Assembly (NCBI RefSeq): GCF_000012985.1 | Contig: NC_007645.1 | Span: 3,130,501-3,194,500, forward strand | DNA from: Hahella chejuensis KCTC 2396 | Lineage (GTDB): Bacteria > Pseudomonadota > Gammaproteobacteria > Pseudomonadales > Oleiphilaceae | DNA length: 64,000 nt | Reading direction: 5' to 3' | Part shown: piece after piece, positions 26,411-60,805 of the stretch | Layout: each line of letters starts with the position of its first letter | Position numbering within the stretch: the first letter of the stretch is position 1 | Position numbers and translations under genes: made by a program | Notes under the pieces: generated by a model | The model's input: the letters and a program-made list of their open reading frames with translations, nothing else | Database searches by the model: none | What the model was told of the DNA's origin: nothing

Positions 26411-26433
26411 AAAATGGGTGTCCTGGTAAGAAC
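26411..26433 (+). repeat. Dispersed GGACACCCA element, copy 1
   Basis: TGGGTGTCC core at 26415-26423 with flanks matching the consensus (AAAA before, CTGGTAAG after). It is the leftmost exact copy I found in the window, lying upstream of the epimerase gene. Confidence 0.75.
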
Positions 26434-26537
26434 TAAGGTGGGTGCGTCGGGTGGCATGGTCTGCCGTCAAAGAGAAGTATGTAAAGCGTGACTGGCGTTG
26501 GCGTCGCAAGTAGCGGCGTCTACTACTGTTCCTGCGG

Positions 26538-27929
26538 CTAGAACATCCAGCGATTCCAATTACCGTAATGCCTGTTGATGTCGCCGCGCGGCAGACTCAA
26601 CAGGATCAAGGCTACGCCGGCGGTGATGCTAGCGAGCGAGGCGTACAGGCCGGGTCCATAGGCGAAGGGCGTAAACAATAGACAGACGCCAAGCGGGATC
26701 AACAGAAAGCGCACTGGTCTGGCGACCTCCGTCAACGCGATCACCGCCACGGTAATGGTCAACGAACCAATCAGATGGTCCCAGTCCGCCATCCCTCCCT
26801 CGGTTCCGAACAGCAGTCGCGTGAACATCAAAGCCACGCCGATGAGTATGCTCACTGCGAGGTTCCATGGGAGTCCCACACCGCCGCCCACGATATCTTT
26901 CATAATGGCGGCCGGGCGTTGCTCGAAGCTGGGCTCCGGCGCGACGCGTCCGCCACTGTCCTCATCGCCGAGGAAAAACACTTTCCAAAGCGAGCGCCCC
27001 GCCTGTTTGCGTCGAAACAGAAATTGGCCTGTGGCCAACAACTCGTCCAGCGAGTAGGGGATCTGCAACAACATGGCGGTGGCCGCAATCAGACAGAGGG
27101 AGCACCAAGTCCCCAGCAAAATGGGCTGAATAATGATGAACGTGATGGAGACTATGCCCAGAGGCACAATCATGAATCCAAACAGCGCCACCAGCCAGGG
27201 CATGGTGCGCCAGCGTTTGGGGGAGCCCACCAGCCCTGAGAGGATTTCCAGCGCATAAGTTAATGCGCCCACGCCGGCGTCTGGAACCGGCCAGGCTTCG
27301 GACACATACGAAGTGATAATTTCCTCAGCGCCGTTTTGGGGATCGGTACGAGAGCCGGCGAAGAAGGGGTCCCACACTTCGGGAATATGCTGCAACTGAT
27401 ATGCGCACAGGTAAGTTGAAATTAGCAGTCCGACTATGGCCAAGGCGATTATCGGCAGACGTTGGAACCAGCTTGAGGGGTTGAAGTCCCACCCAGGGGG
27501 AATGTTGGTTTCATCCAGCTCCGCCCGTGATGAAACGCCGGGAGAGGGCGGTAGCCCGATAGCGAAGCCGATAACCAGAATGCCCGTCAGAGAGCTGTTC
27601 AAGTATGCAGCTGCGTTGGGTGTCCAGAATAGCAGCGGCGCGGACAACAGCCACAGTCCCACTATGGCGCAAACCCAGCGAGCGCAGCTCCACCGCCAGG
27701 ACAAGGACGCGGAGGCGAAGACTAACAATACGACGCCCGCCGCTATATCGCTGTAAACCATGCCTGGCTCCCTGTAGTCTCGCAGCGCCGGCGAACAGAC
27801 GAGCCAGAAAGCCAGGGCCATGTTCATGAAGTGAGCCCACAGGTTGCGGCTATGCAGGGCCCGGTATTGGTCGCGATGTACGATGGAGCGCGAAAATGGC
27901 GATGATGACCGGATAATCTGTTCCTGCAT
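26538..27929 (-). CDS. SPW-repeat / VKOR-like membrane protein
   Basis: 463 residues from the ATG at 27929 with AGGAG upstream. About ten membrane segments. The N-terminal part has the SPW repeat type (LWAHFMNMALAFWLVCSPAL, then LWLLSAPLLFW); the middle has a vitamin-K-epoxide-reductase-like domain with the redox motif CSLC (GTWCSLCLIAA) and partner cysteine YLCAY. VKOR proteins reoxidise disulphide-forming partners in the periplasm. A second SPW-like region ends the protein. It sits between the epimerase and PfpI genes in one transcription direction. Confidence 0.8.
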   Translation of the reverse strand: MQEQIIRSSSPFSRSIVHRDQYRALHSRNLWAHFMNMALAFWLVCSPALRDYREPGMVYSDIAAGVVLLVFASASLSWRWSCARWVCAIVGLWLLSAPLLFWTPNAAAYLNSSLTGILVIGFAIGLPPSPGVSSRAELDETNIPPGWDFNPSSWFQRLPIIALAIVGLLISTYLCAYQLQHIPEVWDPFFAGSRTDPQNGAEEIITSYVSEAWPVPDAGVGALTYALEILSGLVGSPKRWRTMPWLVALFGFMIVPLGIVSITFIIIQPILLGTWCSLCLIAATAMLLQIPYSLDELLATGQFLFRRKQAGRSLWKVFFLGDEDSGGRVAPEPSFEQRPAAIMKDIVGGGVGLPWNLAVSILIGVALMFTRLLFGTEGGMADWDHLIGSLTITVAVIALTEVARPVRFLLIPLGVCLLFTPFAYGPGLYASLASITAGVALILLSLPRGDINRHYGNWNRWMF

Positions 27930-27972
27930 AGCGGGCTCCTTTTGTGTGTTCACGGGCGGATACGATTAGTTG

Positions 27973-28509
27973 TCAGAGCGCGGAGATGGCGTCCTTTATA
28001 GCGCTCACGAAAGCGTCGAGGTCGCCGGGATGACGGGCGGTAATGATATTGCGGTCGCGCACCGTGGCTTCGTCCACCCATTCAGCGCCAGCGTTTTTCA
28101 TGTCGGTGATGATGGACTTGTAAGAGGTGGCGCGAATGCCGCGGACAATCTGAGCTTCAATCAATAGCCAGGGGCCGTGACAGATGGCGGCGATGGGTTT
28201 TTCGGCGATATTGAACTTGTGGATCAGATCTATCACTGTTTTTTCCACCCGCAGCAGATCAGGGTTGATCTGCCCTCCCGGCAACACAACTGCGTGATAA
28301 TCCTCGACATCAATATCCTGCACGGTTTTGTCCACCGGCGCTTCCTCGCCCCAGTCCTTGCCGCTCCATCCACGAATGCGACCGGATTCCAAAGAGGCTA
28401 CGTGAACCGTGGCGCCTGCGTTCCGCAGACGATCCCGGGGGACTTCCAGTTCGGATTGTTCGAACCCATGTGTGGCGATGATGAGAACCTTGGCTTCATT
28501 AATATTCAT
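27973..28509 (-). CDS. DJ-1/PfpI-family protein
   Basis: 178 residues from the ATG at 28509. Nucleophile elbow AAICHGPWLL (Cys), with Glu in HGFEQSELEVP and the trailing His of the family, as in PfpI/YhbO glyoxalase- or chaperone-like proteins. These protect against carbonyl and heat stress. It is probably the first gene of the PfpI-VKOR-epimerase transcription unit, with 43 nt to the next gene. Confidence 0.92.
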   Translation of the reverse strand: MNINEAKVLIIATHGFEQSELEVPRDRLRNAGATVHVASLESGRIRGWSGKDWGEEAPVDKTVQDIDVEDYHAVVLPGGQINPDLLRVEKTVIDLIHKFNIAEKPIAAICHGPWLLIEAQIVRGIRATSYKSIITDMKNAGAEWVDEATVRDRNIITARHPGDLDAFVSAIKDAISAL

Positions 28510-29396: not shown

Positions 29397-29413
29397 GACT
29401 TGGTTAGCGCTGA

Positions 29414-31637: not shown

Positions 31638-31725
31638 AGATGGGTGTCCTGCTAAGCAACGAAAGTGAAATGGCGCGCTATCAATCTCAATGTGCTGTAA
31701 AAGTGGGTGTCCATTTAGAACACCC
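31638..31725 (+). repeat. Two dispersed GGACACCCA elements
   Basis: Cores TGGGTGTCC at 31641-31649 and 31704-31712. The second is followed by AGAACACCC, a partial inverted copy. Both lie in the 380-bp gap downstream of the LysR gene and upstream of the protease gene; the rest of that gap shows no gene. Confidence 0.8.
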
Positions 31726-31739: not shown

Positions 31740-32639
31740 TTATCCCAAAGACTCCAGTTTCCATTTCAGCCGCTCCGTTGCCTGCCTGAGTATGAAGGGA
31801 AGGCGCTTGCCAAAGGAGTGCAAGGCGTACACGTCTCTGTCTTCCGCCTGCCAGTCCGGCGCGACTCTTTCCAATTCCCCCCGCCCAATGGCGTCCGCCA
31901 CGAAAATTGAGGGCGCCAGAAGCAGACCTAAGCCATGCCGGGCATAGTTGATGGCCGCCGGTAGCGTATTGACGTGCATTGCCTTGCCTGCTTGCAAAGG
32001 AACCTGCTCGCCGTTGCTGTATAGCGAGGCTTTGTGCTGCCAGGGCAGCAGGATGAGGGTGTGATTGTCCAGTTGTCTGGGGTCTGGCTTGCCATGGGTG
32101 TCCTGATAGGCTTGCGAAGCAACCAGAAACGAACGTAGGACACCCAGTTTTAGTGCGTGATAGTCGCTGTCTTTCTGGGGACCGACTGTAATCGCCATAT
32201 CCAGTTTATGTTCAAGCAGATCAAGTTTTTGATCAGAAAAAACAACATCGGCGGTGAGTTTAGGATACTGCCGACACAAGTCTGCGATGACTGACTCAAC
32301 CAACAGAGACTCAAAAGCGTGAGGGGCGGTAATCGCGATCCGACCCTGAGGTTCTTGCTCAAAGTCCTGCAACTCATCCACTGCCAACTGCAGCGTTTCC
32401 GCCATTTGTTCGCAGCGCAATGCGAATTGGCGTCCCGCAGGCGTCAGATGCAGTCGTCGGGTGCTACGACTCAGCAATTTCGTGCCGACTAATGTTTCCA
32501 GTTGACTGATATAGGTGCTGATGGCTGAACGGGTGTGTCCGAGGTTTTCCGCCGCCCCAGTGAAAGAGCCGCACTTCACCACTTCGTTAAACACCAGCAT
32601 ACGGTACGGTAGCGCCTTTTGTTCATTATTTCTAAACAT
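31740..32639 (-). CDS. LysR-family transcriptional regulator
   Basis: 299 residues. Winged helix at 8-67 (FNEVVKCGSFTGAAENLGHT and SAISTYISQLETLVGTKLL), then the two-lobed co-inducer domain from about 95. It is divergent from the SnoaL-like and esterase-like genes, 88 nt away, and probably controls them. An exact TGGGTGTCC (32095-32103) lies inside the coding region and is read as QDTHG. Near relatives regulate drug or aromatic ester metabolism, but the ligand is unknown. Confidence 0.9.
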   Translation of the reverse strand: MFRNNEQKALPYRMLVFNEVVKCGSFTGAAENLGHTRSAISTYISQLETLVGTKLLSRSTRRLHLTPAGRQFALRCEQMAETLQLAVDELQDFEQEPQGRIAITAPHAFESLLVESVIADLCRQYPKLTADVVFSDQKLDLLEHKLDMAITVGPQKDSDYHALKLGVLRSFLVASQAYQDTHGKPDPRQLDNHTLILLPWQHKASLYSNGEQVPLQAGKAMHVNTLPAAINYARHGLGLLLAPSIFVADAIGRGELERVAPDWQAEDRDVYALHSFGKRLPFILRQATERLKWKLESLG

Positions 32640-33116: not shown

Positions 33117-33158
33117 TTATCAGGACACCCACATTATTAACCGGACACCCATTTCAAC
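33117..33158 (+). repeat. Tandem pair of GGACACCCA elements
   Basis: Two direct copies (cores 33123-33131 and 33143-33151), the first with the full TTATCA...ATTATTAA flanks. They occupy the gap between the SnoaL-like and hydrolase genes, so the transcript carries both. Confidence 0.85.
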
Positions 33159-33961: not shown

Positions 33962-33996
33962 AGGACATCCACTTTAATAAAGTGGATGTCCTTTTT
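33962..33996. repeat. Inverted pair of the dispersed element, acting as terminator
   Basis: AGGACATCCACTTT and its exact reverse complement are separated by AAT, giving a 14-bp stem followed by TTTT. The arms are the dispersed element with one change (GGACATCCA). It lies 49 nt after the hydrolase stop codon and 110 nt before the RAYT gene, so it can terminate the hydrolase transcript and marks the left flank of the transposase gene. Confidence 0.85.
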
Positions 33997-34106
33997 GGTT
34001 TTAATTCTTCTTGCTGGGTTGTTTGTCTGGCGTCAGGACTTGACGCTCACAAACAATGCTGTTTATATGGCCAGTAGTCTGGGTTGTTAGTTCAAGGAAG
34101 AAAACC

Positions 34107-35102
34107 ATGCCAAAGCCGCGGAAAGCGCAGATATCCATCGACGCCACCCCGTTTTATCACTGTATTTCCCGTTGTGTACGCCAGGCGTATTTATGCGGTC
34201 AGGATGTTGATGGCCGGGATTATTCGCATCGTCGGAAGTGGGTGGAGTCCAGAATCTTATTTCTCGCATCGGTATTCTCCATAGATGTATGCGCCTACGC
34301 GGTGATGAGCAACCACTTCCATGTCGTACTCCATATTAATCACAAACAAGTAGCCTCATGGAGTGATAGGGAAATTGTTAATCGCTGGAACAAGCTCTTC
34401 ACCGGGACTGAACTGAGCTGGCGTTACTTGCGGGGAGAACCGTTAGATGAGGTCGATCTCCAGCGTTTGCAGAAGCAGATTGCTATTTGGCGTCAGCGTC
34501 TTGCTTGCATCAGTTGGTTTATGCGCTGTCTGAATGAACCTATTGCAAGAATGGCGAACCGGGAAGACGGCTGCACTGGACGATTTTGGGAGGGACGCTT
34601 CAAGTCTCAGGCGCTGCTGGATGAAAAAGCATTACTGGCTTGCCTTGCTTATGTCGATTTGAATCCCGTGCGAGCCAATCTGGCCAGGACGCCGGAAGAA
34701 AGCGCGTACACGTCTGTTCAAAGGCGAATCAGTGCTTTAAAAAGCGAACAACCGCATCAGCCCGCTAAACTCATGCCGTTTGTGGGTCCTCAGCGAAATA
34801 TGGCCTCTCAGGGCATTCCCTTCGCCCTGGACGACTATTTGGCGCTCGTGGATTGGACGGGCAGGGCTCAAAGGGATGATAAACCTGGCTATATCCAGCA
34901 AAACTATCCGCCAATATTGCAACGCTTAAACTTCGAACCTAATCATTGGCTGACGGCCAGTCTTAAATTTGAGAGTCGCTTTAGTGGCTGGGTGGGAGCT
35001 TATTATCGTTTGAAGGCGGTCTGCGTCAAGTTGGGTTACACGCGGATTCCAGGCCGCGCCACATGCACATTGCTTTTGGCAGAGCAGAGCGCAGGGGCAT
35101 GA
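34107..35102 (+). CDS. REP-associated tyrosine transposase (RAYT), Y1 family
   Basis: 331 residues from the ATG at 34107 (GGAAG upstream). The Y1/HUH nuclease pattern is intact: H70-F-H72 in MSNHFHVVLH coordinates the metal, and a candidate catalytic Tyr182 sits in LAYVDLNPVRANL. The IS200-like domain is extended by REP-transposase features such as CTGRFWEGRFKSQALL. RAYTs cut and rejoin short palindromic REP sequences and are domesticated single-copy relatives of IS200/IS605. It is flanked at both sides by the dispersed GGACACCCA element, a candidate substrate. Confidence 0.88.
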   Translation: MPKPRKAQISIDATPFYHCISRCVRQAYLCGQDVDGRDYSHRRKWVESRILFLASVFSIDVCAYAVMSNHFHVVLHINHKQVASWSDREIVNRWNKLFTGTELSWRYLRGEPLDEVDLQRLQKQIAIWRQRLACISWFMRCLNEPIARMANREDGCTGRFWEGRFKSQALLDEKALLACLAYVDLNPVRANLARTPEESAYTSVQRRISALKSEQPHQPAKLMPFVGPQRNMASQGIPFALDDYLALVDWTGRAQRDDKPGYIQQNYPPILQRLNFEPNHWLTASLKFESRFSGWVGAYYRLKAVCVKLGYTRIPGRATCTLLLAEQSAGA

Positions 35103-35123: not shown

Positions 35124-35146
35124 GTTAGAAGGACACCCACAATAAG
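35124..35146 (+). repeat. Dispersed GGACACCCA element, right flank of the RAYT gene
   Basis: GTTAGAAGGACACCCACAAT, a consensus copy 22 nt after the RAYT stop codon, in the 52-bp gap to the convergent phosphatase gene. With the inverted pair at 33962 it brackets the transposase gene. Confidence 0.82.
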
Positions 35147-35943: not shown

Positions 35944-37296
35944 TCAATCGCACACTTGCCATTGAACGTCGCCGTGGCCGGTTCCAAAACGCTGCATAGT
36001 GTATTTCTCGATATCGATGAGATACCCGGTGCGGCCCAGGTTTTGAGTGCAGCAGCCGTCACAGTCCGAGTCTGAGCACATGTCATACACCACGACATCA
36101 ATTTCCTTATCGCCCTGGCGAAGACGGAGGGTCTTGCCGTTCAGCCAGTTGAAATCCTTGGAGTGGACTGCGGCGATGTTATGCGCCTTGACCCAGCTTT
36201 CCGGTTGTACGCCATCCAGGCCAGCGAATTGTCCGGCCCATTGACAGCCATTGTATTTGATACATTCTTCACTGTTTGGGTCAGGGTATGACTCATAGTT
36301 GGTCAGGTTGGCTTCATTCCAGCTATTGATGGCGGAGCAGCTGGCGCCGTTGTCGCTTCCATCATCTGAGTCGCCTCCGTCATCATCCCCTCGATACTCA
36401 TCCCAAAACCAATGGCTGATCACTGGGTCATAACCAGGGTTGGGGTGAACGGCGATATACAGTTTTCCCTTGTAGCGGACAATGTTTCCTTCCACATAGT
36501 TATGTCCTGACCGCCAGTCTGGAAAATCATCGGAGTCTCCATTCGTCGTCTCCATTTTGGATACGCGTACGGAAGAAGCGTCATTGTCACGGCTTAACTC
36601 GGCTGCATCAGAGGTATAGAAGTCGCGTACGCCTTTGAAGTTATTGTGCTGGAATACCTCCAGCCTGAGCCCGCTTGGAACTCGGGCGGAGGAGAGGTCG
36701 TCGTTCAATGCGCCACGGGAAATCAGACTGGACAGATTATAATCGCCTACGGGAAGCTCAACGGAGTACCCCTTAAAGTGGGTGTCTTCATAGAGTTTGA
36801 CGGTTTTCTCTCCGTCGCCGCCTGATGCCGGTCCGTATACTTCCAGCTCCCACAGTGAATAGCCGTATTCTGTTCCGCGCTTTATGCCTTTGATGCGAAC
36901 ATAACGGCCGGAGGCGTTCAGATTGGTAAGGTCGTCAATGTCGCCATCCGCATTGGTGACTGAGCGGACTGTCGTCCAGGTTGAGGCGTCATTGGATACC
37001 TGCAAGTCATAGGCTTTCGCATAGGCGGCTTCCCACAAGAGCTTCACGCGGGATATGGAACGCTTCTCTCCCAAGTCGACATAGATCCAGGCTGTTCCGC
37101 CATAGGCGCTGCCCCAACGGGTGTTGGCGTCGCCATCCACCGCCATGTAACCGCTGAGATCACTTGATTCGATAGAAGAGGTCGTGACTGGTTGCATATG
37201 CGCCAGATTCTCTGCTGCGAAGACCGCGTGGCTCAAGGCTGCTCCCGCAGCGACGGATATGGCGAGAAAATGTTTACGCCAGTGGGATGAAATCAT
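35944..37296 (-). CDS. Secreted discoidin / crystallin / chitin-binding / expansin-like protein
   Basis: 450 residues, signal peptide about 1-27. Four modules follow in order. First, an F5/8 type C (discoidin-like) domain at about 30-155 (VTTSSIESSDLSGYMAVDGD, TRWGSAYGG). Second, a beta/gamma-crystallin-like domain at about 165-250 (LYEDTHFKGYSVELPVGDY). Third, a CBM5/12 chitin-binding module at about 256-298 (FPDWRSGHNYVEGNIVRYKG). Last, a double-psi beta-barrel of the expansin/barwin type (about 320-450) with a Cys cluster (DMCSDSDCDGCC) and HGDVQWQVC. Expected role: non-catalytic loosening or binding of polysaccharides outside the cell. Its start codon lies in a dispersed repeat. Confidence 0.8.
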   Translation of the reverse strand: MISSHWRKHFLAISVAAGAALSHAVFAAENLAHMQPVTTSSIESSDLSGYMAVDGDANTRWGSAYGGTAWIYVDLGEKRSISRVKLLWEAAYAKAYDLQVSNDASTWTTVRSVTNADGDIDDLTNLNASGRYVRIKGIKRGTEYGYSLWELEVYGPASGGDGEKTVKLYEDTHFKGYSVELPVGDYNLSSLISRGALNDDLSSARVPSGLRLEVFQHNNFKGVRDFYTSDAAELSRDNDASSVRVSKMETTNGDSDDFPDWRSGHNYVEGNIVRYKGKLYIAVHPNPGYDPVISHWFWDEYRGDDDGGDSDDGSDNGASCSAINSWNEANLTNYESYPDPNSEECIKYNGCQWAGQFAGLDGVQPESWVKAHNIAAVHSKDFNWLNGKTLRLRQGDKEIDVVVYDMCSDSDCDGCCTQNLGRTGYLIDIEKYTMQRFGTGHGDVQWQVCD

Positions 37297-37310
37297 GGGT
37301 GTCCTACCTT
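37288..37310 (-). promoter_or_regulatory. Translation start of the expansin-like gene built from a dispersed element
   Basis: Read on the minus strand, AAGGTAGGACACCCATGATT contains the element core with its final A forming the ATG start codon. AGGA of the same copy is the only Shine-Dalgarno-like stretch, about five bases from the ATG. Expression may therefore depend on the repeat. Confidence 0.7.
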
Positions 37311-37497: not shown

Positions 37498-37680
37498 AGC
37501 ATGGCGATGATATTTGGCTGCCTGATTAATAATTAATTGTGGGTGTCCTGGTAATTTGTACGGCGGCGATGCGCTCATTGATATGAGAGCCTGCCTGACG
37601 GTAACTCGCTGAGGAAAAAAGTGGGTGTCCTATTTAAGTACTTGCTCAAATTCAACGCTAATATGGGTGTCCTGATAAGA
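37498..37680. repeat. Repeat cluster upstream of corA
   Basis: A degenerate half-copy of the deoB hairpin element (GATATTTGGCTGCCTGATTA, ending 37533) abuts a GGACACCCA copy (core 37539-37547). Two more follow (cores 37622-37630 and 37664-37672), all in the same orientation. The 468-bp gap between the divergent expansin-like and corA genes holds nothing else I can name. Confidence 0.8.
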
Positions 37681-37764: not shown

Positions 37765-38709
37765 ATGCTGAGTTTGTTTACGATCAGGGACAACGGAGTT
37801 CATGAGTCTTCGAGTACTGTGTCCCTGGAGACGCTACAGGCGGCGTCCTGGATTGATGCGCAGGCGCCGGATGCGGCGGAGCGCGAGCTGTTGGATGCTT
37901 TATTACCAGAGGATCTGCCGGAGTCATCGGCGGTGGAGGAGATTGAGTCCTCCGCGCGCTTTTTCACCGACGCCAACGGCGTGCATGTGCACTCGCTGTT
38001 TTTGTCGAGCGGGGACGGCCGACCAAGAACGGTCACGGTGGCGTTTATATTACAAACACAGCGACTGATTACCCTGCGGCATAGCGATTGCGCCGACTTT
38101 GGGTTGTTCCTGACGCGGGCGGAGAAAGGTCAGGTGGAAGTGTCTGGCCCGGCTCAGTTGCTGGTGGCGCTATTGGAGCAAAAAGTGGGAAATCTGGCGG
38201 ATATAATCGAGGACACCCATCGTAAGCTTGACCATATCAGTCATCAGGTGCTGGAGCAGGGCGGCGATTTGCAGGCCGCCATCGGGGGACTGGCGCGAGT
38301 GGAGGATTTAAACGGCAAGGTGCGTCTGTGTCTGATGGATACGCAGCGCTCCATTTCCTTTCTACAGCGACACGCCAAACCCTGGCCGGAGATGCAGCAG
38401 ACTTGCCAGGAGATCATGCGCGATGTGGAGACGCTGATGTCCCACACCACATTTTTGTTCGAAAAGATCAACTACTTGATGGACTACACACAGGGGTTCA
38501 TCAATATTCATCAGAACCAGATCATTAAAATCTTCTCCATCGCCTCCGTGGTTTTGCTGCCGCCCACTCTCATTGCAAGTATCTATGGTATGAATTTCGA
38601 CTATATTCCTGAGCTGAAATGGCTGCTGGGATATCCCTGGGCGATTGGAGTGATGATTGTGTCCGCCGTGACGCCCTACTTGTATTTCAAGCGCAAGGGC
38701 TGGCTGTAG
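37765..38709 (+). CDS. corA: CorA-family divalent metal transporter
   Basis: 314 residues. A large cytoplasmic alpha/beta domain and long stalk helix end in two membrane segments with the family gate motif YGMNF (IASIYGMNFDY) and the positive C-terminus YFKRKGWL. CorA pentamers carry Mg2+, Ni2+ or Co2+; the ZntB subfamily exports zinc, but the YGMNF loop fits CorA. RBS AGGGAAT. One exact GGACACCCA copy (38211-38219) lies in the coding region, read as EDTHRK. Confidence 0.88.
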   Translation: MLSLFTIRDNGVHESSSTVSLETLQAASWIDAQAPDAAERELLDALLPEDLPESSAVEEIESSARFFTDANGVHVHSLFLSSGDGRPRTVTVAFILQTQRLITLRHSDCADFGLFLTRAEKGQVEVSGPAQLLVALLEQKVGNLADIIEDTHRKLDHISHQVLEQGGDLQAAIGGLARVEDLNGKVRLCLMDTQRSISFLQRHAKPWPEMQQTCQEIMRDVETLMSHTTFLFEKINYLMDYTQGFINIHQNQIIKIFSIASVVLLPPTLIASIYGMNFDYIPELKWLLGYPWAIGVMIVSAVTPYLYFKRKGWL

Positions 38710-38839: not shown

Positions 38840-39607
38840 ATGAGACGTTTGACACTACAAGAAGCCGCACGATTATCAATCCCATTGTTGGACCTGACTT
38901 CGCTGAATGACGCGGATACGGACGCCAGCATCACCGCACTTTGCCAGAAAGCGCGCACCCCGGAAGGTTGGGTGGCGGCGGTGTGCGTATACCCCCGCTT
39001 TGTCGCTTTGGCGAAACAGATTTTGAGCGAGGCGCCTGTAAAAGTGGCGACGGTGGTCAATTTTCCTCACGGTGAAGCGCCAGCCGATGTGGTGATTGTG
39101 GAAACCACCGAAGCCATTCGCGCCGGCGCGGATGAGATCGACCTTGTGTTTCCATACAAAGCCCTGTTGGCGGGAGATGAAAACACCGGGCGCAAATTGG
39201 TGGCTGCCGTGAAAGCCGCCTGCGGCGAAGCTGTGCGGTTGAAGGTCATCATTGAATCCGGTGAATTGAAAACCCCGGATAATGTGCGACGCGCCAGCGA
39301 GTTGGCGATCGCCGCCGGCGCGGATTTTCTAAAGACATCCACCGGAAAAGTGAAGGTCAACGCGACCCTGGATGCGGCGGAAGTCATGCTTAATTGTATC
39401 CGGGAGTCCCGCGCGCCGGTGGGATTCAAAGCTGCTGGCGGCGTCAGCACGCCGGAGCAGGCGCGCCTCTATCTTAGTCTGGCGATGAACATCATGGGCG
39501 ATGATTGGGTGTCCCCGGATAACTTCCGTTTTGGCGCAAGCAGTCTGTTGCATAATTTGCTGGTGTTGCTGGGACACGGTTCCGACCACGCCACTCTGGA
39601 ATACTAA
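38840..39607 (+). CDS. deoC: Deoxyribose-phosphate aldolase
   Basis: 255 residues from the ATG at 38840 (AAGGA seven bases upstream), near the 259 of E. coli DeoC; a longer frame from 38756 is not needed. The class I aldolase pattern is clear: VCVYPRFVALAK, VVNFPHG, DEIDLVFPY, KVIIESG and the Schiff-base lysine in ADFLKTSTGK. It splits 2-deoxyribose 5-phosphate into glyceraldehyde 3-phosphate and acetaldehyde. It heads the deoC-deoB-deoD salvage group. A TGGGTGTCC copy (39506-39514) is read as WVS. Confidence 0.96.
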   Translation: MRRLTLQEAARLSIPLLDLTSLNDADTDASITALCQKARTPEGWVAAVCVYPRFVALAKQILSEAPVKVATVVNFPHGEAPADVVIVETTEAIRAGADEIDLVFPYKALLAGDENTGRKLVAAVKAACGEAVRLKVIIESGELKTPDNVRRASELAIAAGADFLKTSTGKVKVNATLDAAEVMLNCIRESRAPVGFKAAGGVSTPEQARLYLSLAMNIMGDDWVSPDNFRFGASSLLHNLLVLLGHGSDHATLEY

Positions 39608-41960: not shown

Positions 41961-42090
41961 TAATAGGACACCCACTTTTTTGTATGACCGTCTTCGCACA
42001 CCTTAGCAGGACATCCATCTTTATGACGCAACGGGACCCCCTGGTTGGCGGGGGTCCAGCTCAAACGTTAACAGGACACCCATCCTAACG
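41961..42090 (+). repeat. Three GGACACCCA elements between deoD and nhaR
   Basis: Cores at about 41966-41974 and 42074-42082 (exact) and at 42009-42017 (GGACATCCA). All share one orientation and TTAnCA-type flanks. The remainder of the 334-bp gap has no gene. Confidence 0.85.
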
Positions 42091-44267: not shown

Positions 44268-44292
44268 CTTAGCAGGACACCCATCTTTAAAA
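44268..44292 (+). repeat. Dispersed GGACACCCA element
   Basis: CTTAGCAGGACACCCATCTT, a full consensus copy six bases after the histidine-phosphatase stop codon. The rest of 44293-44439 shows no gene. Confidence 0.85.
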
Positions 44293-44439: not shown

Positions 44440-44994
44440 TCAGGTCATATGTCGTTCTAACCAGGACACCCACACTTTCAACGGCGGCAATTCGAACTCT
44501 TCCGCCTTACCCAATTCGTCCAGTTCCCGTAATCGAATGGCGTCGCGAGAAGCGGGATCGGCTTCAAACTCACGGCATTGTTGCGATGTGAACGGGCCGC
44601 CTTGTTGCGCCAGGGTAGCCTTGCTGGCGGTGGATAGACCTTCCGCGTATTCAGGCCGGGTGGCCACCAGATAACGCTTCGCCTGTACATGCAGGGCAAT
44701 AGGCCTGACCAGACTTTCCGGCAGCCTGTGTTCACGCAGCCAGGACTCCGCCAGACTGTCGTGATGGACATAACCCCATCGGTCGCGACCTGGCAAATTG
44801 CGATCTTCAGCCAGTAAATGCCCGATATCGTGCAGAAAGGCGGCGCCGATCAATGCAGTAGAGCCGCCCTGGCGTTGCGCCCACCACCCGCATTGCGCCA
44901 TATGCTCGTATTGTGTGCAGTGTTCGCCGTAGTTCCTGTGTCCATACAGGTCGAACAGGCGCTCCAGTTCCGCCAGAAATTGAGAGCTAGCCAT
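44440..44994 (-). CDS. PhnZ-like HD-domain oxygenase of the phosphonate cluster
   Basis: 184 residues. HD-domain iron ligands line up with those of PhnZ with a constant offset: His31, His55-Asp56 (FLHDIGH), His77, His101 and Asp158; Glu24 in YGEHCTQYEHM matches the substrate-gating Glu. PhnZ is a mixed-valent di-iron oxygenase that splits 1-hydroxy-2-aminoethylphosphonate into glycine and phosphate. Its partner PhnY is not in this window. Last gene of the AEP operon, 2 nt after the HAD-IB gene. A GGACACCCA copy (44464-44472) encodes part of the C-terminus (KVWVSW). Confidence 0.8.
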   Translation of the reverse strand: MASSQFLAELERLFDLYGHRNYGEHCTQYEHMAQCGWWAQRQGGSTALIGAAFLHDIGHLLAEDRNLPGRDRWGYVHHDSLAESWLREHRLPESLVRPIALHVQAKRYLVATRPEYAEGLSTASKATLAQQGGPFTSQQCREFEADPASRDAIRLRELDELGKAEEFELPPLKVWVSWLERHMT

Positions 44995-44996
44995 GA

Positions 44997-45665
44997 TTAC
45001 GCCTTTTCATCTCGCAGCGACAGAATTTCCCAGCCCCGCTCGACGGCGATGCGGCGCAATACCGGGTCGGGGTCCACGGCGACCGGACGACGCACGGCTT
45101 CCAGCAGCGGCAGATCATTATGTGAGTCGCTGTAAAAAGCGGCGTCTTGATAATCCCAGCCATGCTGCGCCGCCCAAGCCTGCACCCGGGTCACTTTGCC
45201 TTCTCTAAAAGTGGGTGTCCCGATAAGAGAGCCGGTGATTACGCCGTCCCGGATCTCGATATCCACCGCCAGCACATGGGGCGCGCCGAGTCGCTCGGCG
45301 ATAGGCGCCACCAGATGCGCGCCGGTGGCGGATACAATAGCGATCTCGTCGCCGGCGCGGCGATGTTCATCCAACAGGGCGAGTGCGCGGGCGGGAATCA
45401 TGGCGTTAATGTGGGTGTCCACATAAGCGCGGATCAGCGTTTGCAGTTGCGTCGGCGGCAGTCCCACCAGCGGCGCCAGGGTGTAAGACATGTAGGCGTT
45501 GAAGTCCAGAGCGCCGGCTTCGTAGTCATCCATAAAGGCTTGGTTGCGCTGTAGAAAATTGTGCGGCGTGGGAATTTCGTCCTGGGCGGTGAGAAATTCC
45601 GAGAACGCCTGGGCGCTGTCGCCGGCCAGAAGAGTGTTGTCGAGATCAAAAAGCGCTAAGGACAT
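44997..45665 (-). CDS. HAD-IB (SerB-like) phosphatase of the phosphonate cluster
   Basis: 222 residues. Motifs: ALFDLDNTLLAGD (nucleophile Asp7), IVSATGAHLVAPIA, Lys in REGKVTRV and FYSDSHNDLPLLEAV, as in HAD subfamily IB phosphoserine-phosphatase-like enzymes. Within a phosphonate operon it may dephosphorylate a side product, but its substrate is unknown. Two TGGGTGTCC copies (45212-45220 and 45412-45420) lie in the coding region, read as IGTPTF and VDTHIN. Confidence 0.85.
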   Translation of the reverse strand: MSLALFDLDNTLLAGDSAQAFSEFLTAQDEIPTPHNFLQRNQAFMDDYEAGALDFNAYMSYTLAPLVGLPPTQLQTLIRAYVDTHINAMIPARALALLDEHRRAGDEIAIVSATGAHLVAPIAERLGAPHVLAVDIEIRDGVITGSLIGTPTFREGKVTRVQAWAAQHGWDYQDAAFYSDSHNDLPLLEAVRRPVAVDPDPVLRRIAVERGWEILSLRDEKA

Positions 45666-45705: not shown

Positions 45706-46944
45706 TTATCCGGAAACCTTGCCTTCCCGCGCCAACGCGCAGCGCAGTCGAAAAACGGGATCAAAGGGATCGGTCTCCTGGGTGTTAAAACGAGTGGGGG
45801 CGTACAGCTCAGCGTTGGTGAAAGGCGTGACGCCGCTGATCAGTTCGGCGATCAAACGGCCAAAGCCGCCGGACGCGCCAACGCCGCCGCCACAGCATCC
45901 GGACGCCAGCCATAGTCCAGGGAGACTCAGCGCTCCGATCAGAAAACGACCATCCGGGGTGTAGCTGGATACGCCGCTGACGTAGGCGGCGATTCTTAAT
46001 TCGTCCAACAGGGGTAGCCAACGCTGGAGATCCTCGTAGCCGTCTTCCAGCGAGGCCACGCCATCGCTGTCCTGATCAAAACTAAAACGATGGATGTCCT
46101 CTGGTAGTTGCTCAGGCGAGCAATGCACACGCTGACGGTCGCGCAGCCCGAATAACAGGCCGCCAACTTCCGGCCGCGCGTATGCGTTAGCGTCCGGCAG
46201 CACCAGGACCGGCGTGTCCGGCTGGATGCGCGCGTCCGGGGCGGAGATCCAGTACTGGCTGCGCACCGGCGCCATGGCGGGCGCCAGACCCAGCGGACGT
46301 AATAACAACGCGCTCCAGGGGCCGCCTGTAACGACAATTTGTCGCGAGTGATAGGTCGCGCCGTCAGCGCTGCGTACGCCAGAGGCGCCCTGACTGTCAG
46401 TGAGAATCTCCGTCGCTTCCGTATCGAGCTGCAAGGTTGCGCCGCGACGCCGCGCCTGACGCAAGTAGGCGCTGGCCAAACGATAAGGATCGATATAACC
46501 GTCTTCTGGAACAAATACCGTGACAGCGTCCTGCGGCGCTTGCAGCCAGGGCAGACGCTTGCGCAAATCGTGGGTGTCCAGATAGTGGACGTTACGTCGG
46601 CGTACGCTGGTTTCCTCCGCCAGCGCGTGAAGCTTGGCGATGGCGTTTGCGCTGACGCCTGCGTGCAAACTGCCGCAGGCGCGCAGGTCCAGGTCTTCTT
46701 TCAGGTCGGTTTGCAGGCGTTCAATCGCCCGCCAGGTTTCGTCGACCATATCCAGAGCGGTGGCGTCGCCGCGGGCTCGCCCCAGCAGGGCGGCGGCCTG
46801 ACTGGTAGTGGCGCTGGCGGGCTGGAGACGGTCCAGCAGCAAGACTTTCTGTCCCTGTGCGCTCAAATAGTCGGCGCTGGCGCATCCGAGGATGCCTGCG
46901 CCGATGACAATGACGTCAAAATGTCGATTTATTGTGCTCATCAT
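45706..46944 (-). CDS. FAD-dependent amine oxidoreductase of the phosphonate cluster
   Basis: 412 residues, DAO family. FAD Rossmann motif DVIVIGAGILGCASADYLSA at about 10-30; substrate-domain signature GVSSYTPDGRFLIGAL and terminal GCCGGGVGASGGFGRLIAEL. Such oxidoreductases recur in AEP operons and are thought to act on N-alkylated or hydroxylated aminophosphonates to give phosphonoacetaldehyde. It follows the EamA gene by 25 nt. A TGGGTGTCC copy at 46571-46579 is read as LDTHD. Confidence 0.85.
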   Translation of the reverse strand: MMSTINRHFDVIVIGAGILGCASADYLSAQGQKVLLLDRLQPASATTSQAAALLGRARGDATALDMVDETWRAIERLQTDLKEDLDLRACGSLHAGVSANAIAKLHALAEETSVRRRNVHYLDTHDLRKRLPWLQAPQDAVTVFVPEDGYIDPYRLASAYLRQARRRGATLQLDTEATEILTDSQGASGVRSADGATYHSRQIVVTGGPWSALLLRPLGLAPAMAPVRSQYWISAPDARIQPDTPVLVLPDANAYARPEVGGLLFGLRDRQRVHCSPEQLPEDIHRFSFDQDSDGVASLEDGYEDLQRWLPLLDELRIAAYVSGVSSYTPDGRFLIGALSLPGLWLASGCCGGGVGASGGFGRLIAELISGVTPFTNAELYAPTRFNTQETDPFDPVFRLRCALAREGKVSG

Positions 46945-48774: not shown

Positions 48775-49880
48775 GACAGTGAGATCTCCATAGCGATAAG
48801 GGTGTCTTTGACGGCTTGCAGCAGGCGCGCGACTTCAGGTGTGTCGATTTTGCCGATGCAGCCGATGCGGAAGCTTTCGGTCTGGGTCAGTTTGCCGGGA
48901 TAGATCACGAAGCCCCGCTGCTTCAGTTCTTGATAGAAGCGTTTGAAATCAAAATTGGGATCGGCGGGCGATAAGAAGGTGACGATGACCGGCGAAAGCC
49001 AGCGTTCTTCCAGCAGTGTCTGAAAACCCAACTGACGCATACCCGCGACGAGTTGATCGCGATTGCGGGTGTAGCGGGCCAGTCGCGCCGGCGCGTCGCC
49101 TTCTTCTTCATACTCCCGCAACGCCTGAGCGAAGGCCGCCACGGTGTGTGTGGGCGGGGTGTAGCGCCATTGTCCGGTTTTCTCCATATAGGCCCACTGG
49201 TCATGCAGATCCATGCTCAGGGAATGGGCGTTGCCTTTGGCCTGTTCCAGCAGGTCCCGGCGAATCAACGCGAAGCCAAAGCCTGGGACGCCTTCGAAAC
49301 ACTTGTTGGCGGAGGAGATCAGCGCGGCGTAGCCCAGCTTTTTGGCGTCGGCGGGCAGGGCGCCGAAAGCGCTCATGGAGTCGATGATCAACTTGCGTCC
49401 GGCGCCGTTAACCACTTCCGCAATCGCTTCCACCGGATTCAATATCCCGGAGCTGGTCTCGCAGTGCACCACCGCCACGGTAGTGATGCTGGCGTCCTGA
49501 CGCAGTAGCTCCGCCACTGCATTGGGGTCAGGAGGCAGATAGTCGCCGGTGTCGATGCAGACATAGGGGCGTTTAAGGTAGTCGCAGATGTTGGCGATGC
49601 GTTGCCCATAGGCTCCGTTCATCAGCACCAACAGCTTATCCTGCGGGCCAAGCAGAGTCCCCAGGGTCGCCTCTACCGCGAAAGTGCCGCTGCCCTGCAA
49701 GGGGACGCAAACATGGGTGTCCTGCGAATTGGCGACGGCCAGCAGCTTATCCCGCACTGTCTGGGTGACCTGGTTGAAGTCCTGATCCCAGGAACCCCAG
49801 TCATTCAGCATGGCTTCTTTAACCGTGCGGGAAGTGGTGATCGGGCCGGGGGTGAGCAGGTAATAGTTGGGTTGGTTCAT
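48771..49880 (-). CDS. phnW: 2-aminoethylphosphonate:pyruvate aminotransferase
   Basis: 369 residues, PLP fold type I. Family signatures: [50 protein letters not shown] lysine in [15 protein letters not shown] and [18 protein letters not shown]. It moves the amino group of AEP to pyruvate, giving alanine and phosphonoacetaldehyde. A TGGGTGTCC copy (49714-49722) is read as SQDTHV. It sits 53 nt after the permease gene. Confidence 0.97.
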
Positions 49881-52790: not shown

Positions 52791-53226
52791 AAATGGACAC
52801 CCATGTTAAGCCAGGTTCGCCAGCCGCCCTTCGACAGGCTCAGGACGAACGGCGGTGTTAAATGGACACCCACTTTTAATTCCAAGCTCACCCGTTCGCG
52901 CTGAGCTTGTCGAAGCGCTCTTGTGGGTGTCCTGATAACTTCCTGTCATCATCAAAGTTGTTAAACGGACACCCACTTCAGAACCCGTTTGCCGGCCGCC
53001 CTTCGACAGGCTCAGGACGAACGGTGATGTTAAATGGACACCCACTTTTAATCTCAGACTCACCCGTTCGCGCTGAGCTTGTCGAAGCGCTCTTATGGGT
53101 GTCCTAATAACTTCCGGCCATCATCAAAGTCATTAAACGGACACCCACTTTAGACCGGGTTTGTCGGCCGCCCTTCGACAGGCTCAGGACGAACGGGGAA
53201 GGGTGTTTAAAGTGGGTGTCCTGTTA
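52791..53226. repeat. 172-bp tandem array of composite repeats between phnS and phnT
   Basis: Two and a half units (52791-52962, 52963-53134, 53135-53226). Each unit has a GGACACCCA element, then CCCTTCGACAGGCTCAGGAC and further to GAACGG, a second GGACACCCA element, the inverted partner CCGTTCGCGCTGAGCTTGTC to GAAG, and an inverted TGGGTGTCC element. The TTCGACAGGCTCAG-type palindrome is a widespread bacterial dispersed repeat. Strong secondary structure in the transcript is expected between the binding-protein and ATPase genes. Confidence 0.92.
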
Positions 53227-57096: not shown

Positions 57097-58422
57097 CTAA
57101 ACCTTGCGCGAGCGGCCGGTGGCTGCTCGTTCTTTCATGTCGGACTGAATATACACCCGGTCGGTCGTGCCCATGCTGGCGTGGCCGAGGTCATCCGCCA
57201 TGTGTTTGAGCGGGCGGTTGGCGATGTCCTGAGAGGCGCCGGTGTGACGCAACCAATGGGTGGTGGCTTTGCGCAGTTCTTTGGCGTCATTTTCGAAGCC
57301 GTCTTTCATCATACGGTGATAGGCCAGCTCAAAGGCCTCCCGCACCAAACGGGCGATCTGGCGACTGGTGAGCCCGCCGCCGCCGCGCATTTTCTGTAAC
57401 AACGGCTCCTTATCGCCGGGGGAAGGCGACGCAGTGAGGCCGCGATGCTCGCGGTAGCGACGAATGTACTCCCACATGGCGCTGGAAACAGAGACATCGC
57501 GGATCTTCAGGCCTTTGCCGAAGGCTTTGAACCACCAGTTACCGTCATGATCCTTCCATACATGCTCCCACATGGGTGTCCATTTAGGGCGGTCGGAGAG
57601 TTCGGAGATACGCAGGTACAGTGATTTCAGGCAGGCGATAATGAAGATAGTACGCTCATAGTTCGGCTGCTCCGCGGCTTTTTCCTTCAGGGTCTCCAGC
57701 ACATATTCCCATTGCAGCTCAGACAGGCGCTTGATCTGCTTCACCTGCGCATCTTTGATCAGATAGGGAGAGGCCTTGCGGATACCGGGGATAGGATTGC
57801 CGAGAACGATATCCTCCTGCACCAGGTGGTCATAAAACACGCTGATGGCGGAGTAGGCCAGGGCGGTGGCGCTGTTGCTCAAGCGGTAGCCTTTCTTTTC
57901 CGGCTGCAGAATGTCTTTCTTGTCCGATTTCTTGGGGGTTGTCCCGTCCTTCTCATCCTGCTTCGCTTCTCTCATGGACCTGGCGGTGTCCCGCATCACA
58001 AACGGACGCCACAGGGGGTTGCTGCGGAACATACCCTGTCCGCCGATATACTCAAAGCGCCGCACCGTCCCGGTTCCAATCCAGCCCGCTGGCGGCGCGT
58101 GTAGAAAATCGAAGTAATTCTCGATATGAGAACGGCGGAGCTGGGACACCGCTTTGCCTTCCACGGTCCAACTCCATAGCAGATAACGCTCCACCTCATT
58201 GCGGAAGCTGGTGAAGGTCTTCTCGCTTTTGCGGGAATAGCTTTTCAGAAAACGCTGGGCGCTGATGAAGTCTTCGTTCACGCCAGGGACGGTCTCTTTC
58301 AGCTTTGCAAGAAACTGTCTGCTGTCCGGGTAGTTATCCAGCATGGCGAGACCGAGAGGCAGCTTGACGAACTCGCGGTGGGCGTCAAAGAGGGGGAAAG
58401 CTGGAAAATCGGGGGCGGACAT
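57097..58422 (-). CDS. Tyrosine-type site-specific recombinase
   Basis: 441 residues. A core-binding N-domain (about 25-110, SYSRKSEKTFTSFRNEVERY) is followed by a catalytic domain with Arg in YLRISEL, His-x-x-Arg in HWLRHTGAS, His in DDLGHASMGTT and nucleophile Tyr in DRVYIQ, so it looks active. Such large integrases often move genomic islands, but no att sites or tRNA are visible nearby. A TGGGTGTCC copy (57573-57581) is read as KWTPMW. The neighbouring unknown gene is on the same strand. Confidence 0.88.
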   Translation of the reverse strand: MSAPDFPAFPLFDAHREFVKLPLGLAMLDNYPDSRQFLAKLKETVPGVNEDFISAQRFLKSYSRKSEKTFTSFRNEVERYLLWSWTVEGKAVSQLRRSHIENYFDFLHAPPAGWIGTGTVRRFEYIGGQGMFRSNPLWRPFVMRDTARSMREAKQDEKDGTTPKKSDKKDILQPEKKGYRLSNSATALAYSAISVFYDHLVQEDIVLGNPIPGIRKASPYLIKDAQVKQIKRLSELQWEYVLETLKEKAAEQPNYERTIFIIACLKSLYLRISELSDRPKWTPMWEHVWKDHDGNWWFKAFGKGLKIRDVSVSSAMWEYIRRYREHRGLTASPSPGDKEPLLQKMRGGGGLTSRQIARLVREAFELAYHRMMKDGFENDAKELRKATTHWLRHTGASQDIANRPLKHMADDLGHASMGTTDRVYIQSDMKERAATGRSRKV

Positions 58423-58534
58423 ACGTTTGGCTGACAACTAAGCTGATTTATGTTTAATAAAAACAATAATATAAAAGTTATATTTAATGTGTTTTGTAAC
58501 TTCTCGGCGAAAGAGTAACGCCACAAAATCGACG

Positions 58535-59113
58535 TTATTCTTTCATCACCTGCCACTCCACTTCCTGAATATCCAGGGTTCCCAGAGTAAGCTTGCACTT
58601 GGTGGACGGCTGGCCGCCATAACCACAGGCGGGAATCTTATAGGTCGCGCCATTGTCGTCCAGACGAAAGGCGGAGGCGGCCAGAAAACGAACGCCGGGA
58701 TTGGCGGCGATGATATTCTCTTCCGCGCAATAAGTGGCCTTATCAGAATTGATATCTAGGAAAGTTCTAAGTTCGTTCACTAAGTCTTTGTATTCAGAGC
58801 CAGAAAGTCGATAAACGCTGACCAGCTTTTTGGACTTCGGGAGGATGCCCACCATCACCGCGCCGGTTTTATTGGGGTTGCTCTGCGCGCCCTTCGACAT
58901 GGCTTTAGAGGTGGATTTAGTGCTCTTTTTATGGACGGTGACGAAGCCGTCATTCTCCGCGGCTTCCTGCTCCGCACTCTGAAAACTACGCGCCGCCAGC
59001 GTCATTTGGCGGTTGAGCTCCTCCCGTAACAGGCCTTTTTGCTCGCCAGACAGGCTGCTGAAGCCATTTTTCGGCGTGTAGGTCTTTAAGAATAGTTCTT
59101 CATCAAATGGCAT
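58535..59113 (-). CDS. Unknown protein with deaminase-like Cys-Ala-Glu / Cys pattern
   Basis: 192 residues, GGAG before the ATG. The N-terminal half is helical and Lys/Ser-rich (KKSTKSTSKAMSKG). The C-terminal half has YCAEENIIAANPGVRFLAASAF, and about 33 residues after Cys-Ala-Glu a PACGYGG and then a TKC. Cytidine-deaminase-fold enzymes show (H/C)AE followed at a similar distance by PCxxC; here the second motif is only partly kept. The call is speculative. It may belong with the recombinase gene. Confidence 0.5.
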   Translation of the reverse strand: MPFDEELFLKTYTPKNGFSSLSGEQKGLLREELNRQMTLAARSFQSAEQEAAENDGFVTVHKKSTKSTSKAMSKGAQSNPNKTGAVMVGILPKSKKLVSVYRLSGSEYKDLVNELRTFLDINSDKATYCAEENIIAANPGVRFLAASAFRLDDNGATYKIPACGYGGQPSTKCKLTLGTLDIQEVEWQVMKE

Positions 59114-59311
59114 AAATACTCCTTATCCATGCGCGGGATCAGTGATTGAATGGGCTTAAACGCCCTGATGGCAATGCTTGCTTTCGCGAGTTCGCGAGAA
59201 GGAAAGAGCAAGCATAGCGGAATGATCAGATGTCGACAATTGAATAATGGAAATTACTGCTTTATAAACAGATAGATAAGCAAGAAACTTAAAGTATAAA
59301 TGAGATGCTGC

Positions 59312-60805
59312 CTACGCGATAGGATGCATCTCCATCAGCCTTGTTCTGTACAACTTATAAGCGTTTTCGTATTCCTCCACAGCTTCCTGTGTTGGCGACA
59401 CGGCGGCGTCTTCATCCAGCTTCACAAAGCGCCGGCACAGGTCATGCAGACAGATGGCGTCGCCCTGGGCGCGTGCATCACACTAGGCCGCCTGAATCGC
59501 CCCGCCCAATGCTGCGCTTTCGCCAACCTGTGGACAAATGACGCGGGCGTTCATCATGTCCGCCACCATGTGGCGCCATAACCGGCTTTTCGAGCCGCCG
59601 CCGATCAATCTGATTTCCTGGCAATGGATGCCGGATGTCCGCAAAAGGTCCAGGCCGTAACGCAGCCCAAAGGTGACGCCTTCCAGCGCCGCGCGGCAAA
59701 CATTAGCGGGTTGCAGGTTCTGCATGTTCAGGCCCAGTAAGCTGCCTGTCGCATCGGGAAGCGGCGGCACGCGCTCGCCATTGAGAAACGGCAGCAGGGT
59801 GACGCCCTGAGCGCCGATGGGCGCTTGCGCGGCTTCCTGGTTGAAACGGTCCAGGTCGTAGCCGAACAGACCCCGCACCTGGTTAACCACCGCCGTCAGA
59901 TTCATGGTGCATATCAGGGGCAGCCAGCCGCCGCTGGAGGAGCAGAATGCCGCAAGGGATGGGTGTCCTTGCATTGGCGGCCGGTTTGAATGGGCGTATA
60001 GCGCGCCGGAAGTGCCCAGGCTGAGGGTCACCACGCCTTCATCTATATTGCCTGTGCCAATAGCGCCCATCATGTTGTCGCCGCCTCCGCTGGCCACCAA
60101 CACGTTATCCGACAGTCCCAACAGGCGGGCGACGGCGGAGCTGACCTTGCCTACGGCCTGCTGCGCCTGCAGTAACGGCGGCAAGGCGCTGGTCAAACGC
60201 CCATCGGGGGCGATGAGTTCGAGGGCTTCCGGGACCCAGCGTCGAGTGCGGATATCGAAATACCCGGTTCCCGAGCTGTCGCCGTATTCGGCGGCGATCT
60301 CTCTGGTCAGCCAGTAGTTGAGGTAGTCATGAGGCAGCAGAATATGGGCGATGCGTTGAAAGGCGTCCGGTTCATGCTGACGCAGCCAGAGCAGCTTGGA
60401 GAGGGTGTAGCCGGTAGCGAGCGTCAGTCCCAGCAGTTCGAGAGAGCCTTGCTCCCCGCCCATCTGTTCTAATAATGCCGCGTTTTGCGGCGTGGTCTCC
60501 GTATCGCACCACAGCTTCGCCGGCCGAATCACCTCACCATGAGAGTCCAACGCCACCAGTCCGTGCTGTTGTCCGGATACGCCGATAGCGCGAATATGAC
60601 GGCTGTCGATACCGGAGCGTTCAAGCGCCTGCCGGTAACTGTCGACGAAGGCCTGCGTCCACCACTCGGGATGCTGCTCGCGACGGCCATTGGCGTCGCT
60701 GATCAGCGCATGAGGCGCGTAGCCCTCTCCCAGGATGGTTTCTCGATCCGGGTCCAGCACCACCACCTTGGTTCCCTGAGTCCCACAATCCACGCCTACG
60801 TACAT
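59312..60805 (-). pseudogene. xylB: Xylulokinase interrupted by an in-frame amber codon
   Basis: The ATG at 60805 (GAGGAGA upstream) opens a FGGY kinase: YVGVDCGTQGTKVVVLD (phosphate binding), GVSGQQHGLVALD, CDTETTPQNAALLEQ, GTSGALYAHS and IRLIGGGSKSRLW. At codon 441 (59483-59485) a TAG follows AIQAA, after which the same frame continues for 56 codons (CDARAQGDAI to MEMHPIA) to the next TAG at 59312. The total of 497 codons including the amber matches full-length XylB, and many homologues have Trp at that place, so a TGG to TAG change is the simplest cause. Without read-through the last helices of the C-domain are lost. Confidence 0.85.

Follow-up and report, generated by a model that had tools for sequence, protein, structure and literature searches.

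Among the described systems, the closest to the one reported here are the REPIN-RAYT pairs, or REPtrons (PMC8049555, PMC2817692), in which a vertically inherited tyrosine transposase accompanies a population of short sites; those sites, the repetitive extragenic palindromes (REPs), are described as hairpins whose foot reads GT[AG]G and which are dispersed in the host genome. In passages of Di Nocera et al. (2013, PMC3733652), one REP family (GTAG-23 of T. roseum) is described as clustered in blocks, with no cloud of sites around its own gene. The same paper presents TIRtrons (TIRYT), where a Y1 gene lies between terminal inverted repeats, some of which belong to small repeat families; a GGGGWSAS motif is given for some of the repeats, and 20 of the 26 examples are assigned to TnpA_Y1 subclass 2.1. 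Subclass 2.3, as the survey by Quentin et al. (2018, PMC6006769) has it, shows a median length of 325 residues, a median HuH-Y distance of 110 and the HuH motif NHYH, and neither automatic nor manual search found a REP-like sequence for it. Here we describe a gene of this last type, tnpA (34107-35102, + strand), that lies within a dense cluster of a 9-mer, GGACACCCA, in a 64,000-nucleotide stretch of Hahella chejuensis KCTC 2396 (NC_007645.1, positions 3,130,501 to 3,194,500; hereafter the window, whose own numbering we use).

On the strength of sequence comparisons we think it probable that the DNA recognition site of this transposase has GGACACCCA as its core, and that Hahella carries a domesticated copy of the gene within a selected cloud of sites. 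The system works most like a REPIN-RAYT pair, sharing the vertically inherited tyrosine transposase, its retention by selection and the population of short sites, yet it departs from REPs in two respects, namely that its sites have no hairpin tendency and that in Hahella they stay within tens of kb of the gene instead of spreading through the genome. As in TIRtrons, a Y1 gene stands between inverted sites (in 45 of 67 relatives, the Hahella copy itself being without a right end), but the site is GACANNCAY, not GGGGWSAS, and the protein belongs to type 2.3, not 2.1. With the IS200/IS605 elements (IS608, ISDra2) it has in common the HUH/Y1 fold, at weak E-values, and it differs from them in carrying Y---NP rather than Y---Q and in the absence of any hairpin tendency at its ends. 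Short inverted sites without hairpins, units of about 1.3 kb and local site clouds are differences from subclass 2.3 as the 2018 survey (PMC6006769) describes it, and they offer a candidate DNA partner for a subclass that was unlinked to any repeat there. No title among the papers listed in searches of the open-access literature concerned this site, and GGGTGTCC, GGACACCC and Hahella appear nowhere in the main text of PMC6006769, of PMC2817692 or of PMC3733652; we file the protein as a TnpA_Y1 of subclass 2.3 and regard the site system as a variation not yet described, as far as that literature goes.

The repeat and the transposase gene within it

The window holds 33 exact copies of GGACACCCA, 14 on the + strand and 19 on the - strand, running from 26415 to 59968, where 0.34 would be expected from shuffled sequence and the maximum among 100 shuffles was 5. 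An earlier note, made from the letters alone, had reported about 30 exact copies confined to this cluster and had taken them for an element rather than a coding accident, and both statements are borne out. When one mismatch was allowed the matches rose to 56 (11.6 expected), so that there are 23 one-mismatch copies, 19 of them within the interval given by the note, which had counted at least six. With 31 open reading frames of the window taken as genes, we found 12 of the 33 exact copies wholly within genes and 21 not; the note's figure of about 21 intergenic copies stands, and its figure of about 10 intragenic ones has to be raised to 12. The wider flanks that it had described are kept as well, since, of the six letters of the TTA/TTA flanks, the mean number matched is 4.7 for intergenic copies, 2.9 for coding copies and 1.3 for random positions.

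Across the whole genome (7,215,267 bp, a single contig) the exact core occurs 72 times and the reversed pattern 52 times; 33 of the 72 are packed into 33.6 kb, and the other 39 are scattered at chance level over the remaining 7.18 Mb. The flanked form, TTANNNGGACACCCANNTTA, separates the cluster more sharply: all 16 genome matches with at most one mismatch, and 26 of the 35 with at most two (reversed control 7), lie inside the window. The earlier note had proposed that a genome-wide count near expectation would speak against the repeat, and the rest of the genome is indeed near expectation, yet this does not refute it because the signal is local.

That count bears directly on the reading that we are seeing one dense part of a DNA-uptake sequence or of a genome-wide REP family, both of which the earlier note had entertained. 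The repeat is short, comes in both orientations and is mostly intergenic, as this reading would have it, but it shows no genome-wide over-representation and no excess outside the cluster, nor do the sites tend to form hairpins: the mean folding z (from approximate dinucleotide shuffles) of the 33 Hahella sites is 0.02 and 0.09 on the two strands, and that of 180 element ends of relatives is also about 0. The genome-wide count refutes this reading, to which we give practically no credence. What survives of the REP suggestion is the tie to a Y1 transposase, which makes REPs the nearest kind; hairpins and genome-wide dispersal are lacking.

The tnpA frame is open from 34056, with an ATG at 34107, and encodes 331 amino acids that include the motifs NHFH, RFWEGRFK and AYVDLNP at a HuH-Y distance of 110. 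In an alignment of 40 related proteins (lengths 305-342), N69, H70 and H72 were invariant, YVDLNP was found in 39, a HuH-Y distance of 110 in 38, and NHYHV in nine. The Hahella protein matched no Pfam family at E 0.001 (there is a sub-threshold Pfam match at E 0.12), reached 40.6 bits against the NCBIfam model 'REP-associated tyrosine transposase', under the cut-off of 80, and found nothing in a sequence-profile search of the PDB. Its AlphaFold2 model (predicted local distance difference test, pLDDT, 86) did find a counterpart in a structure search, the top PDB match and the sole one at E 0.001 being 4er8 (E 1.3e-4), a REP-associated tyrosine transposase in complex with a REP hairpin; behind it, at weaker E-values, came other Y1 transposases, including IS608 and ISDra2. 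The YVDLNP and WE motifs, the HuH-Y distance of about 110, the length and an HUH/Y1 fold related to that of E. coli TnpAREP fit TnpA_Y1 subclass 2.3, as do its presence in Gammaproteobacteria and the several copies per genome when set beside the survey's main text (PMC6006769); unlike the surveyed subclass the window protein has NHFH rather than NHYH, a position at which the aligned set varies.

Inverted sites, mobile units and site clouds in other genera

Relatives of tnpA were collected in one scan of a species-genome collection with three family members, which yielded at least 583 relatives among at least 596 pattern-matched stretches; the best 80 were kept with flanks of up to 10 kb, several of them from one genus or genome and therefore not independent. 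An enrichment of 9-mers that presupposed no motif returned from these 80 loci, besides A/T-rich words, GACACCCAC, AGACACCCA, GGACACCCA, GGACAGGCA and GACAGTCAC, which gives the common form GACANNCAY. Its totals were 227, 95, 70 and 51 for NN = CC, GG, GT and GC (26, 7, 15 and 20 for the reversed pattern), the four NN forms having been chosen after the totals were seen, a choice that tells against our reading.

Position and orientation of the sites are strongly ordered around the gene. In 78 loci (L069 and L072 were left out; L072, which overlaps the contig of L071, was kept in the NN totals), the 250 bp upstream of tnpA held 95 sites on the + strand vs 1 on the - strand (5.1 per kb, reversed control 0.26), and the 250 bp downstream held 2 vs 65 (3.6 per kb, reversed control 0). 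Among the 67 loci that could be scored within 500 bp, GACANNCAY was present upstream in 58, downstream in 49 and on both sides in 45 (reversed control 4, 1 and 0). Such an inverted pair usually brackets the relatives, which come from many, mostly marine, Gammaproteobacteria. The NN class also follows the protein tree, with 9 changes where shuffled labels gave a mean of 18.8 and none of 500 shuffles came as low; the tree had 62 proteins, from 61 loci (no stops, sufficient length, a site near the gene) and from the window, to which we gave the label CC, and the count omitted one locus of the class 'other'. These natural specificity variants (CC, GC and GG/GT) track the proteins, and recognition is thereby directly testable: Hahella TnpA would be expected to favor TTATCAGGACACCCACTTTA over an NN-swapped version, and would bind its site most likely as single-stranded DNA, like other HUH enzymes.

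In four other genera (genomes G015, G016, G024 and G043) the gene with both its ends forms a discrete multi-copy unit, the copies being alike over about 1.2-1.33 kb, and in most of 20 copies the similarity stops no more than about 20 bp from a site or from one of its close variants. At unit ends of G024, G043 and G015 (L183-L198), and beside sites in the Hahella genomes G004 and G005, there are stutters in which the outermost letters are iterated (GATTAAAC, ATAAACAAGG, TGGTAAG, TGGTT); unit ends often show them, and they are perhaps the trace of repeated cleavage and rejoining.

Sites also occur away from any gene copy. When every tnpA-like stretch was masked together with 400 bp on each side, the solo sites of the 78 loci numbered 0.41, 0.37, 0.21, 0.09, 0.10 and 0.06 per kb with growing distance (control 0.02-0.07), an excess that fades over about 3.5 kb, and 27 of the loci have a solo site in the first kb. 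Two genomes of the same family as Hahella, G016 and G015, hold dense site clusters of their own with other flanks, and in a comparison of 20-kb stretches tnpA (56-57% identical) was the only window gene common to both. In G016, 20 of its 43 GGACACCCAY lie within 8.5 kb around one tnpA; in G015, 14 and 21 of its 66 lie at two tnpA places.

These clouds lend themselves to a neutral account, in which the Hahella cloud consists of decayed ends that the tnpA unit left behind as it transposed locally over and over, and has no present role. The sites in the G016 cloud and in the first of the G015 clouds are mostly right-end fragments, variable in inner length and with sharp outer edges, both G015 clouds hold tnpA fragments, mobile units and partial copies are present in G015 and G016, and within Hahella, in G005 and G004, new sites also appear as short insertions that place a single site unit next to an older one. 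Weighing this against the conservation of the Hahella sites described below, we consider the account unlikely.

Conservation and possible role of the Hahella sites

Among 58 genomes (H. chejuensis included), the same cluster occupies the same locus in three of the six congeners, G001, G004 and G005. Their flanked matches fall into one block of 33-36 kb each (24 of 24, 21 of 21 and 29 of 30, respectively) and the blocks align to the window, whereas flanked matches number none in G002 and G006 and one in G003. Of 16 genomes searched with the protein, the other three cluster genomes alone had an orthologue of tnpA (83-84% identical), in each case at this locus, and tnpA (83-100% identical) and cloud occur together in four of the seven Hahella genomes; G002, G003 and G006 are without this tnpA and without the cloud, their only other relatives lying elsewhere at 51-57% identity. 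G003 and G006 share part of this transport-gene block (window 44.4-55.2 kb, minus the DAO gene), their proteins being 61-87% identical, and the 40 kb examined in each contained no GGACA[CT]CCA. G002, in which no orthologous block was seen, was left out of this empty-locus comparison.

Hahella tnpA is a vertically inherited single-locus copy, without a proper right end and under purifying selection. Its frame is open in all four species (325 codons, 331 in the window), and the ratio of nonsynonymous to synonymous substitution rates (dN/dS) is 0.09-0.10 in four Hahella pairs, a figure that, like the site conservation below, comes from four related genomes whose pairs share branches. The protein is thus kept, although the Hahella unit looks immobile. 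The transposase-site system of Hahella sits in one neighborhood, and a comparison of four congeners there allows the spread of sites, their decay and their selection to be followed.

In the four-genome alignment, 79.6% of ungapped columns are identical, and of its 61 site positions 23 are occupied in four genomes, 19 in three, 7 in two and 12 in one. The intergenic cores of H. chejuensis are exact in 17 of 19, 17 of 19 and 14 of 18 cases in the three congeners, vs a fraction of 0.30-0.32 for other 9-mers, and its coding cores in 11 of 12, 11 of 13 and 11 of 13, vs 0.31-0.33. The best-conserved letters spell TTAnnnGGACACCCAnnTTA, a discontinuous pattern of TTA, core and TTA with variable letters between; the identity of those in-between letters hardly exceeds the intergenic background of 0.80 and in part falls below it (-3, 0.57; -2, 0.76; -1, 0.81; +9, 0.80; +10, 0.81; +14, 0.69). 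Coding sites keep their four-fold positions (55 of 59, vs a background of 8785 of 13012), and 7 of the 10 usable ones are identical in all four genomes (background 0.17, p 0.0003), the test having used 10 of 12 sites because one is gapped in G001 and the gene of the other lies outside the aligned range. The evidence against mere debris is that the cores surpass other 9-mers of the alignment 2.4-3-fold in conservation, that the set of conserved letters is discontinuous and that four-fold positions are retained.

Such a footprint is like that of a protein-binding site, and to this extent the earlier note's suggestion of a binding site for an abundant protein holds; the likely partner is instead a dedicated protein encoded within the cluster. 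That a host regulator or nucleoid protein owns the sites, with tnpA a bystander, strikes us as very improbable. The sites do lie between and within ordinary metabolic and transport genes and do resemble a selected footprint, and one genome, G054, has 17 exact GGACACCCA on five stretches (81 kb) in which eight TnpA queries found no relative; the five (L039, L040, L043, L044 and L047) were picked because they hold sites, from a genome in about 110 contigs. On other contigs, however, G054 has seven tnpA matches, in other genera the same core brackets and surrounds tnpA, and the congeners that have the transport-gene block but not this tnpA show no sites there.

A further alternative explains the sites by conversion, not selection: TnpA would generate short single-stranded pieces of the ends, and these would convert near-match neighbors to the perfect site. 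The fall of site density with distance favors it, as does the manner in which coding sites arose, because three of the four compared with G003 and G006 differ from them by indel-free, in-register substitution, not by insertion (the fourth lies where those proteins stop aligning). A copied patch would, however, bring along the letters that separate the conserved ones or directly adjoin them, and these are near or below 0.80; we judge conversion to be decidedly unlikely. The in-register origin of coding sites nonetheless means that local transposition cannot account for all sites, and it is one of several observations that weigh against the account we favor. Hahella tnpA has no inverted right-end site closely after it, the next copy on the - strand (at most one mismatch) being at 36779, and its left-end arms carry one core mismatch (GGACATCCA); the Hahella cloud shows no clear orientation bias (14 vs 19), unlike the relatives; of the 67 relatives scored, 9 are without an upstream and 18 without a downstream site inside 500 bp; and, as the five G054 stretches show, a cloud need not have a tnpA next to it.

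A palindrome resembling a LexA (SOS) box, TGCTGTTTATATGGCCAGTA, lies at 34057-34076, 50 bp ahead of the start codon of tnpA. By matrix score it reaches 19.4 and is the only window match of at least 14; none reached 14 in 120 kb of other Hahella sequence, and the box has a counterpart upstream of tnpA in G001, G004 and G005. Of 76 relatives (from L069-L148; promoter range searched, -150 to +50 of tnpA), 17 have a box scoring at least 14, vs 0 in the control, and 21 have one scoring at least 12, vs 2. With a laxer threshold the control is no longer clean (22 vs 8 at 10 or more, 22 vs 12 at 8 or more), and a box at score 12 is found in 12 of 19 Oceanospirillales but in 2 of 36 Alteromonadales loci; both points belong with those against. 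Hahella tnpA is perhaps SOS-inducible through this box, which suggests a possible link of the transposase-site system to the SOS response.

Under the account we favor, in which GGACACCCA is the core of the TnpA recognition site, copies of the ends would have been seeded near the gene through local transposition or end-only events, after which the Hahella copy would have been domesticated, its unit no longer looking mobile. The sites would be retained because TnpA binding there matters to the cell or to the persistence of the system itself, and the SOS response would release tnpA expression through the LexA-like box. More tentatively, and with rather less than even confidence, we suggest that a DNA-damage-induced, domesticated HUH transposase and some 33 to 50 selected solo sites mark or process one chromosomal domain of 34-45 kb. 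They would form a counterpart of REPIN-RAYT that is confined to one locus and in which selected point mutation accounts for part of the evolution of the sites, those in coding sequence included.

Positions of the sites and other features of the window

Upstream of tnpA lies an inverted pair of the variant GGACATCCA, the left end, with its first arm at 33963-33971 (+) and its second at 33983-33991 (-); the other three Hahella have GGACACCCA here, both arms sharing the same C-to-T change in H. chejuensis. The pair (33963-33991) can form a hairpin and is followed by a T run, and it resembles an intrinsic terminator of the preceding hydrolase gene. A site at 35131-35139 (+), 29 bp past the tnpA stop, has the orientation opposite to the right end of the mobile relatives.

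Solo intergenic sites with complete flanks are found at 26415-26423 (-), where G005 has a 22-bp insertion of one more site unit, at 33123-33131 (+), with a direct repeat 20 bp after it at 33143-33151 (+), and at 37664-37672 (-), beside which G004 has an extra inserted copy. Further solo intergenic sites are at 31641-31649 (-), 31704-31712 (-), 37540-37548 (-), 37622-37630 (-), 41966-41974 (+), 42074-42082 (+), where congeners read AGACACCCA, and 44275-44283 (+), and the site at 37296-37304 (-) overlaps the first base of an F5/8-type-C gene. Genes that contain sites are a VKOR/SPW-domain gene (27617-27625, -), a LysR-type gene (32095-32103, -, and 32138-32146, +), a CorA gene (38211-38219, +), a DeoC-type gene (39506-39514, -; congeners read AGACACCCA), the gene at 44440-44994, inside which a site stands near the end (44464-44472, +), an HAD-type gene (45212-45220, -, and 45412-45420, -, the latter with complete flanks), a DAO gene (46571-46579, -), a class-V aminotransferase gene (49714-49722, -), which we take to be phnW-like, a tyrosine-recombinase-like gene (57573-57581, -) and an FGGY kinase gene (59960-59968, -); the two HAD-type sites and the aminotransferase site are those with in-register substitutions relative to G003 and G006.

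A dense array of eight sites in 172-bp tandem units lies between transporter genes at 52795-53221 (starts at 52795+, 52864+, 52924-, 52967+, 53036+, 53096-, 53139+ and 53213-), and a like array is present in the three other Hahella clusters. Within these units, REP-like palindromic stretches, GTTCGCGCTGAGCTTGTCGAAGCGC and CCGCCCTTCGCTCAGGACGAACGG, alternate with the sites.

Three other candidates for the meaning of the sites were rejected. Canonical Y1_Tnp genes number three in the H. chejuensis genome and none in the cluster, and no GG[AT]CA[CT]CCA was found beside the one of the three that was searched (L055). The sites are not arm sites of the tyrosine-recombinase-like open reading frame of 446 amino acids at 57097-58437 (-), which is not common to the G015 and G016 stretches; no link of this frame to the sites was found. 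Terminus or macrodomain sites were dismissed since the cluster is too far from a dif-like 24-mer (247-280 kb in H. chejuensis, 204-237 kb in G001 and 175-211 kb in G005) and is not on a constant side relative to its orientation. This dif-like site, CGCATAATATATATTATGTTAAAT, at G000:C1:3437047-3437070 in H. chejuensis, occurs once, mismatch-free, in each of the seven Hahella genomes.

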